49,900 bases of DNA. Source: Bacteroidales bacterium. Its GTDB lineage: Bacteria > Bacteroidota > Bacteroidia > Bacteroidales > UBA932. Every line of letters begins with the position of its first letter. Position 1 is the first letter of the stretch. The DNA lies in NCBI GenBank assembly GCA_024398095.1, contig JAKSJK010000009.1, positions 1 to 49,900 on the forward strand, written 5' to 3'. Below are positions 10,344 to 49,900 of the stretch, one piece after another. The notes under the pieces were generated by a model, which was not told the origin of the DNA, made no database searches, and saw nothing but the letters and a program-made list of their open reading frames with translations. Both the position numbers and the translations under genes were made by a program.

Positions 10344-10418
10344 GGGAGCTTAGCTCAGTTGGTTCAGAGCGTCTGCCTTACAAGCAGAGGGTCGGGGGTT
10401 CGACTCCCTCAGCTCCCA
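10344..10418 (+). tRNA. tRNA-Val (anticodon TAC)
   Basis: The 75-nt sequence folds as a full cloverleaf: acceptor GGGAGCT with AGCTCCC, D-arm GCTC/GAGC, anticodon stem TCTGC/GCAGA around CTTACAA (anticodon TAC, valine), and T-arm around TTCGACT. The discriminator base is A and CCA is not encoded. It has its own promoter and a terminator immediately behind. Confidence 0.96.
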
Positions 10419-10422
10419 CTTC

Positions 10423-45396: not shown

Positions 45397-45831
45397 CTAC
45401 AGACTGGACTGAGCATCTTCGAAGGAGGCCGTGTCATTAACGTCCCTCCTACCATTTATGATGAGTTCCTGGTTGAAGCCGCCTTTACATTGATCAATTA
45501 CCCGAATGGACTGATAGCCACTTCGGTTCATGCAAGAGTTGACTTCTGCGTCAGTCTCGGATTCCTTATGGATCGGGTCAAGGTCCTCCGGAAGGAGGGG
45601 AAGATCTGAATATTTCTTTCGCTTTTCCTGAATCCAGCAGATCAGCAGTGTTACAGCCAGTACCAGGAAAAGTAATCCAACGACAACATAGCTCACCATT
45701 GCCCATCCGCTGGTCCACCAGGCCTTCCAGCCATCTTTTGCGATAATAATGATTGCTGGAATCATCTTAATGAGGTCGAAGATGAAGCATACAAAGAGCA
45801 GGAGAATCCATTCGAGTTTTATAGGTTTCAT
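45397..45831 (-). CDS. Membrane protein of unknown function in the AT-rich cassette
   Basis: This 144-aa protein has two hydrophobic segments (about 10-31 and 43-66), a basic patch (IQEKRKKYS) and an acidic, Cys-containing hydrophilic tail. I do not recognise it. It is last in a run of minus-strand genes, 15 nt behind the coiled-coil protein gene. The C-terminal 60 residues overlap an open plus-strand frame, so the true C-terminus may be a remnant of a rearrangement. Confidence 0.6.
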   Translation of the reverse strand: MKPIKLEWILLLFVCFIFDLIKMIPAIIIIAKDGWKAWWTSGWAMVSYVVVGLLFLVLAVTLLICWIQEKRKKYSDLPLLPEDLDPIHKESETDAEVNSCMNRSGYQSIRVIDQCKGGFNQELIINGRRDVNDTASFEDAQSSL

Positions 45832-45846
45832 TTTTTGCGTAGTATT

Positions 45847-46944
45847 TTAGCGATTTCCATCAAAGAAATCAATGGTTTCGTTCAGTATTCTTATATCATT
45901 GTCACAAGACTCAATTTCGCCTTGTAGATCTTCGATCTCATACTTGTTCCGCATTTTGTCTTTATAAACTAAATATGAGGACAGCATTTCCAAAACAACG
46001 TATAATGACAATAAAACGATTGTGAGAGTGGGAGGGAACTGGCCCTTGATAAACCATACGATACCAACAATAATAGCAGAGATGCCAAATGTTATTATCG
46101 ACTGATCAATGAACGGAAATACAATTCGTCTTTCTGCCCGCGGAATACGCAATTTTATGCTATTTATGGTTTCATTGTACTTCTCCATGTCGTAATAATA
46201 ATTGAGTAACAATTCCTTATACCTTTCGACAAGGCCGGACAGAAGCATCGACTGTCCCAGCAGTTCACGATGTTTGTGCAATTTCTTGAAGATTACCGCT
46301 AACGATTCCATGAAGTTAGACTCAGCCTCGGCAATGTCCTTATCTCTATACCACCAATCTATAAAATTGTTCCATAATGACGACTCGCCTTCTTTTTCAT
46401 CAAATACGATATTGATATCTAGATTGGTTGGGATTTCGTTGGCAAGTGCAATGATTTGAGAGACTATTTGGGCAAGCTGCGGACCAGCTTGTTTGAGCAA
46501 ATCTCGAGTGGTCTGTTCAAGTCTCTTGACTTTCATTTGATACTTGGCGTCCATAAAGAACACGTAATTCTGGATCATCAAAGCATATACCTCCCTGATT
46601 CTTTCCTTCTCATTATCGCCAACATTTTTTATCGACTTATCAAGGTTATATAGCAATGTGTCAAATGCCGTGTCTACTAGAGTGGGTGCCTGTATGTTAT
46701 TGAGCAATTGCCTTTGCGTCTCTATTGCATATTTAAGTGTAATATCTGTGTTCAGACATTGTTCCCCAACCCGGATCAAGCAGTTCTGGACTTCATCTAT
46801 TGATGATAGCGTTACTGGCTTTGATAGATCAATGGAGTTATTCTGTGTCCCTAAAAAATAAGAGTCAATGGTTTTTACCTCATCGCTAGAAAGTTTGTCG
46901 ATAACAGAACCGATTCCTGCTATTAAATCACCTAAGGTTCCCAT
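45847..46944 (-). CDS. Coiled-coil protein with C-terminal TM pair, unknown function
   Basis: This 365-aa protein has no signal peptide. Its first 240 residues are predicted long helices rich in Leu, Lys and Glu (for example FDTLLYNLDKSIKN and LKQAGPQLAQIVSQIIAL). Two TM helices follow at about 272-320 (ITFGISAIIVGIVWFI and TLTIVLLSLYVVLEML), then a final coiled-coil tail. Helical bundles near a hairpin of two TMs can be membrane-associated sensors or pore formers (inference). It is 11 nt behind the 73-aa gene and 15 nt before the 144-aa gene, so one operon. Confidence 0.7.
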   Translation of the reverse strand: MGTLGDLIAGIGSVIDKLSSDEVKTIDSYFLGTQNNSIDLSKPVTLSSIDEVQNCLIRVGEQCLNTDITLKYAIETQRQLLNNIQAPTLVDTAFDTLLYNLDKSIKNVGDNEKERIREVYALMIQNYVFFMDAKYQMKVKRLEQTTRDLLKQAGPQLAQIVSQIIALANEIPTNLDINIVFDEKEGESSLWNNFIDWWYRDKDIAEAESNFMESLAVIFKKLHKHRELLGQSMLLSGLVERYKELLLNYYYDMEKYNETINSIKLRIPRAERRIVFPFIDQSIITFGISAIIVGIVWFIKGQFPPTLTIVLLSLYVVLEMLSSYLVYKDKMRNKYEIEDLQGEIESCDNDIRILNETIDFFDGNR

Positions 46945-46955
46945 ATTAGTGGTTG

Positions 46956-47177
46956 TTACTGTATTTGTTTCACATCAAGATACACCATGTTTAGTGCACA
47001 CGCTTTGAGGAGAGAAATGCCATGGATTCTTATGAAAGCAGCTTCTACATCACGGCCGCCGTTTGTTATAACCGGATTTGTAAGATAACTCGTAGTGACC
47101 TCAACCTTCATTCCTGGCTCAATACGCACCCCATTAGAGTTTTTCATACACTTGGTGGTGATAAGATAGCGTGGCAT
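46956..47177 (-). CDS. Small protein resembling DUF6140
   Basis: This 73-aa protein (MPRYLITTKCMKNSNGVRIEPGMKVEV...) has no TM helix. The pattern of an N-terminal beta hairpin, GVRIEPGMKVEV, NPVITNGG, then a helix FIRIHGISLLKACALN and YLDVKQI recalls a family of small proteins from Bacteroidales accessory regions, DUF6140 by memory. The role is unknown. It is 11 nt upstream of the coiled-coil gene. Confidence 0.6.
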   Translation of the reverse strand: MPRYLITTKCMKNSNGVRIEPGMKVEVTTSYLTNPVITNGGRDVEAAFIRIHGISLLKACALNMVYLDVKQIQ

Positions 47178-47262
47178 AGTTTAGTATGTATTAACGATTG
47201 TGTATGTGAAGAAAAAATGATTCTAGATGAATTATGGTGTAAAAGAAGATAGCACCCATATT

Positions 47263-47730
47263 TCACGCCTTTTTTTGTGGTGGTTTTACCCGTCCGCCTG
47301 ATGCAAAGGTAATTACGATACCAACAAGAGCGGTAACACATACAAGGATTGTCTGAATGATATTTGAGTCTTTCTTTTTACGAAGCACCTCATAATTATA
47401 AAGATGTTTACCACAATCGGAAATTATATCAAGAGCTTTGATTTTTTCGGATTCGCTAAGTTCCCCGTCTTTTATTAGGACTAACAATGCATCGGATATA
47501 TTGGAAATTGTTTTGCGGAAATCTTCATTTCCTTGCTTGTCACTCGCAATTTCTTCCTTAAGTACATCTACGAAAGCAGAAATGAAATTTTCCGACAAGG
47601 GTATAATCTCTTTTAATTTTTCCTTTGACAGAGATCGGCTGGAATCTTTAAGAATGGCAAATAATTGATTCGCCATTTCTTTTGAAGTACCATGAAGAGG
47701 CTGGGGGTGATTCTTTTTCATATAATACAT
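47263..47730 (-). CDS. Single-pass membrane protein of unknown function
   Basis: This 155-aa protein (start 47730 or the inner Met at 47721) is soluble and helical through about residue 125, with a TM helix near the C-terminus (NIIQTILVCVTALVGIVITF) and a short basic tail (KPPQKKA), a tail-anchored layout. It lies directly behind the vWA-nuclease gene, the place where an immunity protein would be expected for a polymorphic toxin, but I recognise no immunity family. It has its own promoter box (47742-47749). Confidence 0.65.
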   Translation of the reverse strand: MYYMKKNHPQPLHGTSKEMANQLFAILKDSSRSLSKEKLKEIIPLSENFISAFVDVLKEEIASDKQGNEDFRKTISNISDALLVLIKDGELSESEKIKALDIISDCGKHLYNYEVLRKKKDSNIIQTILVCVTALVGIVITFASGGRVKPPQKKA

Positions 47731-47741
47731 TGGAATGTCTA

Positions 47742-47774
47742 CAAAGGTATTATGATTTCTCGTAACTTGTCAAT
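47742..47774 (-). promoter_or_regulatory. Promoter of the 155-aa gene
   Basis: On the minus strand ATTG (47771-47774, one mismatch), 21 nt, then TACCTTTG (47742-47749), perfect -7 box, about 12 nt before the start. It allows the 155-aa protein to be made independently of the vWA-nuclease gene. Confidence 0.5.
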
Positions 47775-47780
47775 ATAATT

Positions 47781-49880
47781 CTACCTATGATATATTTCGT
47801 AGAGTTCTTTTTTTGTGAAGAGTTTGTAACGGGCCTGCCAGTAGTTCGACTTTTCGTTATCGAAAAGACCACGGTCGATTTCGGACTCTTTTCCGGCCTT
47901 ATGTAGAATCGTGTTGTTTCCATTGCCCATATGCTCTTCCCAAGTCAGTTCCGCATAAGGCGAGCCCTGTTTCTGACCTATATGATGGAGTTCGTACGGG
48001 TCGCCGTTTACATCGCGTGGAGGATAACCTTCGCCGATTAGATCCGCATTATTATAGTCCTTCCAACGCTGCCAGTCACTGAGTTTATTCTTTAACCACT
48101 CCTTACGGCAATTGAATGCGGCCCAATCAATGTCCTGACGTATGAGTGCTGGACGACCATCAACTAACGCTTCCTTCAAATTGGCCTTCATATAAATCTT
48201 TGCCTCATCAATTGAGCCTATGTAGTCAAGAATATTGTTCGACCAACCTGTCTTTTTCCGTATATATGCTTTATCTTTTTCTGTAAGTCCTGTCGTTCTT
48301 TCAGACGAAGTTATTCTGCTATTTCCCGACTCAATGTGCATTCCTCTTCCCCAACTGGTAACCGGAAGAGAAAAGGAAGAGTGGAGGCTGGTGAGGGCAT
48401 AGATAAGCAGTTTTCCTAACCAGACCAGCAAATACAGAAGCAGTGCGGCGATTAGAAGCCACAAAGTCCATAGGAGCATTGGCCAAGGATGTTTCTCCTT
48501 GATGGTCAACTTCCCGATCTTGTATAATCCTGACGAAGATATCTCTCCATTGACCTCATCTATGTCAGATGCGCTCACAAATATGTTTCCGGTATACTTA
48601 CCACCTTTTATTGTCGGATCAACAGATATTTCCAGAACCTGTTTACCATTGTCAGACAAAGCATTGAACGTGCTCTTCGAACTTAAAGAACAGATAGGCA
48701 GAATGCCATTGTTTTCATCTCTGAAACTCAACGAAATCTGTGCGGACGAACGTATTGCTTCATCATTGAAATCCAATTTGACTGGGTATGTGTTCACTGT
48801 GGTGTCTGGGGCAAACCACTTGAAAGGATAATAATCCAGAGTTGGTTCAAAGATGCGTCGTCCCCATTTGAACGGTCCCCTGAATGGCTCCTTGAACTTT
48901 GATTTGATTTTTATTTCTGTAATAGGAAAAGCAAGGAAAGAGTCCTCTTTAATCTTGACGGTTCTTTTACCCTGATTGGCGACAATAAATGACAACTGCT
49001 CAGGAGTAAAGAAAACAAAGGGATAGTCAGAAGTGTTGTGTGTCAAACCAAGGGATATGGTATCGCACAGAGGGATAGACATCCTATCAACCTTTTCACT
49101 CACTGCCAGAGTAATCTTTGTCGAATCAATCCTATATACGCTGACATCGTAATAATCGTTCTTCTCGACATCAAGTCGGAAGCCGATTTCATCAAGATTA
49201 ATAGGTTCATTCGGTTCAATTTCAACATCCACCAAGTTGTTCTCAAAAACATTTGCCGAGATCACGCTAGAAACCTTGACCAGCGAAGCGTCAATATCCA
49301 TTGATTCGATCAACCACATATTCTGGGTTTCCTCCACAGTCTGGCAAATGGCAAGTTCATGTGCATTCGGAGTCAGCATGACATAAAATGCAAACATGTA
49401 TTTACCTTCGGAGAAGTTGGCCCAGTCTGATAGCCTTTCATAAAGGACATTTTTATCAGGCCCACAGTTATGAAGACCATCCGTCAAAAGGAACAGGTAG
49501 TTTATCTTGTTGGGGTCAAGCTTTGAGACACCTGCAGACCACGCATCAGCAATATTTGTATCGCCGCCGCAGACTTTCAAAGATTGCACGTAGGATATGA
49601 TGTCTTCCTTATTGGCGACAGTGTTGCTATATTCAGACAGGACCTTATTTGTAAAGGTTATGATCTCTACCTCTGTAGACAAGTCCGAGATGTTTGAGAT
49701 TGTCTTTTCCAGGTTGTTTTTTACTGTTGAGAAAATATCTGGAGTAGAAATGACACCTCTTCCTTCCATTGAGGCAGTAACATCTACAACATAAATCCTT
49801 TTCTCCTGAAGATTCACCTGTGCATTAAGTCCGAATGCAAAAAACAAGGCTACAAGGGACAGAATTAACTTATTTTTCAT
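47781..49880 (-). CDS. vWA sensor-like membrane protein with C-terminal LHH nuclease
   Basis: This 699-aa protein (start 49880, MKNKLIL; an ATG 12 nt earlier at 49892 is possible) has a signal peptide ending LNA, then a von Willebrand A domain: MIDAS DVTAS (33-37), Thr108 in GGDTNI and LLTDG (131-135). A beta-rich middle (about 210-460) follows, then one TM helix (about 467-495). The C-terminus (about 540-699) is a nuclease domain of the HNH/EndoVII LHH type: TGWSNNILDYIGS, DIDW, LHH at 631-633 (ELHHIGQKQGSPYAELTWEEH), NNTILH and KESEIDR with a Trp-rich end. By topology the vWA part is outside and the nuclease inside. LHH domains are known from polymorphic toxins; joining one to a membrane-anchored vWA is unusual. 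Confidence 0.85.
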   Translation of the reverse strand: MKNKLILSLVALFFAFGLNAQVNLQEKRIYVVDVTASMEGRGVISTPDIFSTVKNNLEKTISNISDLSTEVEIITFTNKVLSEYSNTVANKEDIISYVQSLKVCGGDTNIADAWSAGVSKLDPNKINYLFLLTDGLHNCGPDKNVLYERLSDWANFSEGKYMFAFYVMLTPNAHELAICQTVEETQNMWLIESMDIDASLVKVSSVISANVFENNLVDVEIEPNEPINLDEIGFRLDVEKNDYYDVSVYRIDSTKITLAVSEKVDRMSIPLCDTISLGLTHNTSDYPFVFFTPEQLSFIVANQGKRTVKIKEDSFLAFPITEIKIKSKFKEPFRGPFKWGRRIFEPTLDYYPFKWFAPDTTVNTYPVKLDFNDEAIRSSAQISLSFRDENNGILPICSLSSKSTFNALSDNGKQVLEISVDPTIKGGKYTGNIFVSASDIDEVNGEISSSGLYKIGKLTIKEKHPWPMLLWTLWLLIAALLLYLLVWLGKLLIYALTSLHSSFSLPVTSWGRGMHIESGNSRITSSERTTGLTEKDKAYIRKKTGWSNNILDYIGSIDEAKIYMKANLKEALVDGRPALIRQDIDWAAFNCRKEWLKNKLSDWQRWKDYNNADLIGEGYPPRDVNGDPYELHHIGQKQGSPYAELTWEEHMGNGNNTILHKAGKESEIDRGLFDNEKSNYWQARYKLFTKKELYEIYHR

Positions 49881-49900
49881 TTCGCTGAGCATTATTATGC

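Follow-up and report, generated by a model that had tools for sequence, protein, structure and literature searches.

The window analysed here, meaning the whole stretch of DNA examined, is one complete contig of 49,900 bases (JAKSJK010000009.1) from a Bacteroidales bacterium of the UBA932 lineage (assembly GCA_024398095.1; 2.45 Mb, 82% complete). Its right end carries a cassette of five genes, the largest of which encodes a protein that combines a von Willebrand factor A (vWA) domain, a transmembrane (TM) helix and an LHH nuclease. The initial annotation of this DNA had described five same-strand genes in AT-richer DNA at 45397-49892, and this description stands, since the list of open reading frames (ORFs) contains five minus-strand ORFs of 703, 155, 73, 365 and 144 amino acids (aa) there, with a GC content of 0.407 across the cassette versus 0.544 for bases 1-45300. 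The largest protein had been reported as 699 aa; its ORF and domains were recovered, but the full ORF is 703 aa long, and the 699-aa form begins at the second Met. The start of the 703-aa gene is 8 bases from the contig end, and hence the operon is cut at its 5' side, a point which, like the identity of the 73-aa protein as DUF6140, was absent from the initial annotation. The features of the cassette are as follows.

47781..49892, minus strand: vWA-TM-LHH protein, 703 aa (699 aa from the second Met); ORF, Pfam LHH and VWA, orthologue at locus L002 43% identical over residues 2-508
49818..49892, minus strand: predicted signal peptide, residues 1-25, ending ...FGLNA/Q; hydrophobic N-terminus, cleavage site placed by eye
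49449..49790, minus strand: vWA domain, residues 35-148, with metal ion-dependent adhesion site (MIDAS) D37-T39-S41, T112, D138; PF00092, E 4.3e-7, and motif scan
48423..48479, minus strand: predicted TM helix, residues 472-490; Kyte-Doolittle mean 2.55
47784..48305, minus strand: LHH nuclease module, residues 530-703; alignment with 13 relatives, Pfam LHH at 614-690
47263..47730, minus strand: 155-aa protein with a C-terminal TM helix (tail-anchored type); ORF and Kyte-Doolittle
46956..47177, minus strand: DUF6140 protein, 73 aa; PF19637, E 6.6e-27, and co-location with LHH/WHH
45847..46944, minus strand: 365-aa protein, two TM helices, coiled-coil character by reading alone; ORF and Kyte-Doolittle
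45397..45831, minus strand: 144-aa protein, two TM helices; ORF and Kyte-Doolittle

The numbers of TM helices in the partners agree with those originally assigned. The 155-, 365- and 144-aa proteins gave no Pfam match above the curated cut-off, none of the five proteins gave an NCBIfam match above its curated cut-off, and PHROG contained no match for any of them. That the 703-aa ORF is a product of chance or an artefact is ruled out by its long open frame, its strong domain matches and an orthologue with the same plan.

The LHH domain (PF14411) covers residues 614-690 of the 703-aa protein with E 1.3e-16 and 60.9 bits, against a cut-off of 23.3 bits, and the LHH motif itself lies at 635-637, which corresponds to 631-633 in the 699-aa numbering, where it had been placed before. 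The MIDAS of the vWA domain, whose residues the initial annotation had called complete, has the form D-x-T-x-S starting from residue 37, and the orthologue shows the same pattern; the classical MIDAS is DxSxS, with T replacing the first S here. Kyte-Doolittle hydropathy alone gives one signal-peptide-like segment and one strong TM helix in this protein. Since an exported vWA domain followed by a single stop-transfer helix would leave the LHH module in the cytoplasm, a cytoplasm-facing nuclease, as proposed in the initial annotation, is the likeliest predicted topology. Among solved structures, none matched the 703-aa protein or the LHH profile.

Residues 530-703 align over their full length with stand-alone LHH proteins of 158-200 aa, and for this reason a complete LHH protein appears to have been joined to a vWA-TM scaffold. 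LHH copies 60-69% identical to that of the window are found in six genomes of the family, and the LHH residues, two further His and a Trp are invariant across 14 sequences, of which the most distant (L041) is 30% identical. The invariant columns of the alignment (N, LHH, E, two H, W) agree with the LHH signature N, LHH, E, H, H, W in the table of Zhang et al. 2012 (PMC3482391). The scaffold is rarer: a peptide-pattern scan of GTDB species-genome contigs yielded one relative of the 703-aa protein, from Bacteroidales SUG646 (L002), whose similarity does not extend beyond residue 508. In overlapping samples of the order (393 genomes) and the family (299 genomes), the 703-aa protein was matched somewhere in 8 and 21 genomes, respectively, the window's own among the 8, and in the other genomes the match is to either vWA or LHH. 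A phage origin of the cassette was considered and counted out, because PHROG, phage records (no match for the 703-aa protein) and IMG/VR were negative. The peptide-pattern scans of IMG/VR, which find close relatives only, returned no relative of the 365-aa or 703-aa protein nor of two DUF6140 proteins taken from relatives, the window's own DUF6140 not being among the queries; the LHH part alone as a query gave three IMG/VR loci. In 72,556 plasmid records, the LHH part was matched in two, and the window's DUF6140 and 365-aa proteins in none.

LHH and WHH nucleases are exchanged on three scaffolds, namely the vWA-TM scaffold, a coiled-coil/multi-TM pair and a dynamin pair. In the orthologue L002, the vWA-TM scaffold ends in WHH (residues 775-804, E 6.1e-5), which at 23.1 bits falls just under the Pfam cut-off of 25.1, and which is backed by matches of E ~1e-7 to WHH proteins of L105, L106 and L107; that of L106 exceeds the cut-off. 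The second scaffold consists of a multi-TM protein (495-531 aa) and a 135-148-aa partner, located upstream of LHH in L063 and L064, counted as one because they are 95% identical over 7.8 kb, and upstream of WHH in L106, with a 315-aa gene between the pair and WHH; the LHH-linked and WHH-linked pairs match at E 7e-82 and 7e-44. In L021, a dynamin pair precedes LHH at a distance of 2.6 kb that holds three genes, and in L105 a dynamin pair with 49% and 38% identity to it immediately precedes WHH. Further arrangements upstream of LHH were observed. In four genomes of one genus (L061, L062, L063 and L064), the right flank and the terminal LHH gene are common and the genes upstream of LHH differ, which marks a variable site, and at L066:4872-10246 an LHH nuclease follows a HerA-like ATPase, itself preceded by a protein whose Hsp70 match is weak and below the cut-off.

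The recurrent neighbour of these nucleases is the named family DUF6140, to which the 73-aa protein belongs. In the window, DUF6140 is encoded 604 bases from the LHH gene on the same strand, and the locus fits a class that we propose to call DUF6140-linked LHH/WHH cassettes, in which DUF6140 lies on the same strand and ≤7 kb from LHH or WHH. DUF6140 occurs in 18 of the 299 family genomes (17 above the cut-off), and it sits on the LHH contig, at 10 to 4,726 bases, in 6/7 family genomes with a close LHH, the window included; "close" means 60-69% identical to the window's LHH, or the window's own, and the 60% limit was chosen after the list was seen. The hypergeometric probability of this co-location is 1.3e-7 for 6/7, and 3.6e-6 for 6/10 when three genomes with weaker LHH are added, both figures overstating the association because the genomes are related and the limit was set post hoc. 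Starting from DUF6140, LHH or WHH was found within 7 kb in 11 of 30 loci (29 from searches plus L002, with some of the loci lacking either nuclease on short contigs), and in all 11 on the same strand. WHH shows the same tendency, with DUF6140 present at five of six WHH loci, and WHH above the cut-off in 4/18 DUF6140 genomes versus 1/199 family genomes, that one also with DUF6140; a second of the 199 matched WHH below the cut-off. At L002, a shortened DUF6140 copy lies 394 bases from the vWA-nuclease gene and an intact copy 2.3 kb away.

Pairs of related loci indicate how such cassettes may vary. In L105 and L106, DUF6140 together with its flank (86%) and WHH (95%) are alike, and the genes in between differ; L061 and L063 have LHH, DUF6140 and the right flank in common, and differ upstream of LHH. 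In some loci, DUF6140 and the nuclease therefore give the impression of constant ends that enclose exchangeable modules. The order in the window, LHH gene first and DUF6140 third, is unlike that of those loci. At L060:4527-5791, two DUF6140 genes, 93% identical in DNA, stand on either side of an LHH gene, and these paired copies could possibly serve as recombination ends for module exchange. At L018:9763-12341, DUF6140 is flanked by WHH on one side and by LHH on the other, the three genes sharing one strand. No publication on DUF6140 was found in the open-licence literature, and DUF6140 and the 365-aa protein gave chance-level matches only against solved structures.

The initial annotation had treated the five genes as one system, which holds as far as DUF6140 recurs with LHH; the remaining three partners do not recur with the nuclease in the loci compared, and for them the idea of one conserved five-gene system was rejected. 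The only vWA-nuclease orthologue found, L002, has DUF6140 nearby but none of the 155-, 365- and 144-aa partners, so homologues lack three of the four neighbours and keep DUF6140. No relative of the 155- or 144-aa protein is present in the 100 loci compared. The 155-aa protein, the one of the two that was searched for in 81 genus genomes, occurs in one of them, its own. Relatives of the 365-aa protein exist in L017 (same genome), L025 and, weakly, L026, in other contexts. DUF6140 alone is hence regarded as a recurrent neighbour. At L017:7748-10751, on contig 58 of the window's own genome, the 365-aa relative adjoins an Ion_trans channel of 565 aa (4.7e-17), genes of mobilisation and integrase-like type being close by, and at L025:7388-14681 the relative lies 4.3 kb from a similar 565-aa protein, channel-like by reading.

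The genomic surroundings of DUF6140 and LHH bear on the kind of conflict involved. DUF6140 lies directly before a GmrSD-type restriction gene (L127:4364-6427) and directly before the PADLOC candidate PDC-S26 (L130:9879-11434), and a gene for an IetA-like AAA protein adjoins it in L037; in L113, AAA/MoxR-like and DUF2201 genes are at least 2 kb away. Other neighbours of DUF6140 are without matches in the Pfam and PADLOC scans, for example those of L112 and L126 in both and those of L039 in PADLOC. LHH accompanies a HerA-like ATPase in L066, and the dynamins of L021 and L105 match LeoA/LeoBC in PADLOC, the LHH-linked dynamin with E 5.7e-18 to LeoA. The initial expectation of variable, defence-linked loci is borne out in that variable loci repeatedly contain both LHH and DUF6140, and DUF6140 stands beside genes resembling known defence genes. 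On the E. coli conjugative plasmid NZ_CP035852.1 (L040), an annotated dynamin, a hypothetical gene, a HerA-like ATPase, an LHH nuclease and a SUKH protein follow in a row.

Four groups of known systems invite comparison. LeoA/LeoBC dynamins belong to the Eleos system, which resembles relatives of the cassette in that a dynamin pair matching the LeoA/LeoBC models is the scaffold paired with LHH or WHH in L021 and L105; the Eleos gene set is not known to include LHH or WHH, and none of the five window proteins has a dynamin match in Pfam or PADLOC. DynA of Bacillus subtilis is reported to protect against phage (PMC8844932). Among the open-licence papers listed, none brings together as many as three of DUF1232, dynamin, nuclease and Bacteroidales, and none names the combination described here in its title or at the start of its abstract. 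In Zorya type II (ZorAB + ZorE), according to PMC11890865, a membrane complex recruits the ZorE nuclease upon infection and host DNA is damaged; the mechanism proposed here would share this logic of an envelope complex and an HNH-type nuclease damaging DNA in the infected cell. Unlike Zorya, the window unites sensor and nuclease in one polypeptide, with an LHH nuclease and a vWA sensor, and neither ZorA/ZorB nor another Zorya-type protein was matched among the five by Pfam or PADLOC. The cassette is best read, by analogy, as working like Zorya II but not as a member of it.

A third comparison concerns the vWA conflict systems of Kaur et al. 2020 (PMC7159879), in which vWA components are combined with variable effectors fused or encoded beside them (MoxR-vWA ternary systems; GAP1-N2 systems with tubulin). 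One class there has a membrane vWA in extracellular position (GAP1-N2, tubulin systems), one vWA-tubulin class is ascribed to firmicutes and actinobacteria, and HNH occurs once in that text, for NucA-type systems. The part of the operon present on the contig, which stops upstream of the vWA gene, differs in that its five genes show no MoxR, GTPase or tubulin match in Pfam; in the same bacterial family, L067 does pair a vWA relative with Tubulin_2. Relatives of the vWA protein in L022, L067, L069, L070, L071 and L072 stand, by reading, before a tubulin-like gene; a membrane partner and, behind it, a very large protein accompany most of them, and Pfam identifies Tubulin_2 (9.6e-50) and a papain-type peptidase (3.1e-19) in L067.

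Polymorphic toxins are the fourth group. The nuclease families are the same (Tox-LHH, Tox-WHH) and the LHH signature matches, and PMC3482391 lists these toxins with export pathways and SUKH immunity proteins. The window protein has a predicted signal peptide, yet a TM helix precedes its LHH module in the predicted topology, its closest LHH relatives are signal-less, and no SUKH-like protein is among the five. A signal sequence begins three LHH proteins (L041, L114, L115), and nine others examined have neither signal peptide nor TM helix. SUKH follows LHH in L114, L040 and L076 by Pfam, the LHH of L076 being a 90-aa piece, and in L041 by annotation. Pfam found no SUKH or other known immunity family among the four neighbours of the window's LHH gene, and no SUKH among the neighbours tested in L060, L065, L066 and L018; the downstream genes of L061-L064 and L019-L021 were assessed by reading only.

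We favour, with a probability of about 0.55, the explanation that the 703-aa protein serves as a membrane-tethered nuclease effector in an intracellular conflict system of modular build, probably abortive and anti-phage, which is often marked by DUF6140. The exported vWA domain would probably contact an envelope partner or sense an envelope disturbance, and the single TM helix would pass the signal to the LHH side. The LHH nuclease, of the HNH/EndoVII fold and predicted to face the producer's own cytoplasm, would then be released or clustered and cut DNA, most likely halting growth of the infected cell, and the small membrane proteins may keep the nuclease silent or assemble the complex.

Several observations weigh against this explanation. 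By the positive-inside rule, neither the 703-aa protein nor its orthologue shows a preference for an inside C-terminus, as K/R residues within 20 residues of the TM helix number four before and one after it in the 703-aa protein, and three and one in L002; flanking charges are mixed in seven related vWA-TM proteins and TM partners, with more charges after the helix in four (L022, L070, L071, L072) and equal or fewer in three (two L023 proteins, L067). Across the 393 order and 299 family genomes, vWA and LHH are united in one protein only in the window's own genome. DUF6140 is neither necessary nor specific for LHH/WHH loci, since 19 of the 30 DUF6140 loci lack LHH/WHH within 7 kb, and five of the 12 LHH loci scanned (L019, L020, L021, L062, L066) lack DUF6140, the other seven having it. 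No good PADLOC model match exists among the five proteins, the best being PDC-S05 with the 155-aa protein (E 7e-4), and the dynamin/LHH plasmid locus L040 contains a SUKH gene. In addition, the upstream part of the operon is absent from the contig, which ends there, and the left flank reads as ordinary chromosome, not as a defence island. The transporter in that flank offers no basis for an empty-site comparison, with matches in 4/81 genus genomes including its own and the others at only 36-40% identity. Separately, tRNA-Val (tac) at 10344-10419 is the sole tRNA gene that ARAGORN finds in the window.

A different role for the same architecture would be surveillance of the membrane or a stress response unconnected with phage, in which the vWA domain senses envelope damage or attack by competitors and LHH triggers death or DNA processing. 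The vWA-TM relatives of the same family in tubulin-type systems and the 365-aa relative that adjoins an ion channel are membrane-sensing themes, both of which lack a link to phage, and lend this some weight. DUF6140 beside restriction-type and candidate defence genes and LHH accompanied by Leo-type dynamins speak against it, and we regard it as unlikely. We consider it also rather unlikely that the protein is a polymorphic toxin directed at other cells, with signal peptide and vWA domain for trafficking or adhesion, LHH as the tip and the 155- or 144-aa neighbour as an unrecognised immunity protein. Immunity genes usually sit directly after the toxin gene, and the 155-aa gene directly follows the LHH gene. 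According to PMC3482391, LHH and WHH have stayed for the most part confined to polymorphic toxins, and in other bacteria signal-bearing LHH proteins (L041, L114) do have SUKH downstream. Against this, the partners match neither SUKH nor another known immunity family, a TM helix ahead of LHH would hold the nuclease back, the closest LHH relatives have no signal sequence, and in the 100 loci compared no other LHH gene has the 155-aa neighbour.

An accidental or decaying gene set, that is, a chance fusion in laterally acquired AT-rich DNA beside unrelated neighbours and without joint function, would account for a fusion found in one genome only, for three of four partners not conserved with it, and for the adjacent contig end. 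Yet the frame is open at full length with the invariant LHH, His and Trp residues kept, and the orthologue L002 retains the vWA-TM-nuclease plan with another nuclease and has its two DUF6140 copies near. We regard this explanation as quite improbable.

Beyond the single protein, we tentatively suggest, at somewhat less than even odds, that DUF6140 is the marker of modular immune cassettes that form an undescribed class in this bacterial family, probably in Bacteroidales. In such cassettes, unrelated sensors linked to the membrane (an exported vWA-TM protein, the multi-TM coiled-coil pair or the dynamin pair) would be exchanged against two cytoplasmic HNH/EndoVII nucleases, LHH and WHH, recruited from the toxin arsenal, and the window would contain the version with sensor and nuclease fused into a transmembrane receptor-nuclease. 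If this is true, the nucleases of inter-bacterial weapons would be reused as internal suicide effectors under membrane control, the 703-aa protein would be a readily testable bacterial receptor-nuclease in a single chain, and DUF6140, for which this reading hints at a role, would provide a small marker gene for finding more such loci. The exchange of LHH among several membrane-linked modules suggests a family of cell-suicide systems, perhaps anti-phage ones, that has not been described.

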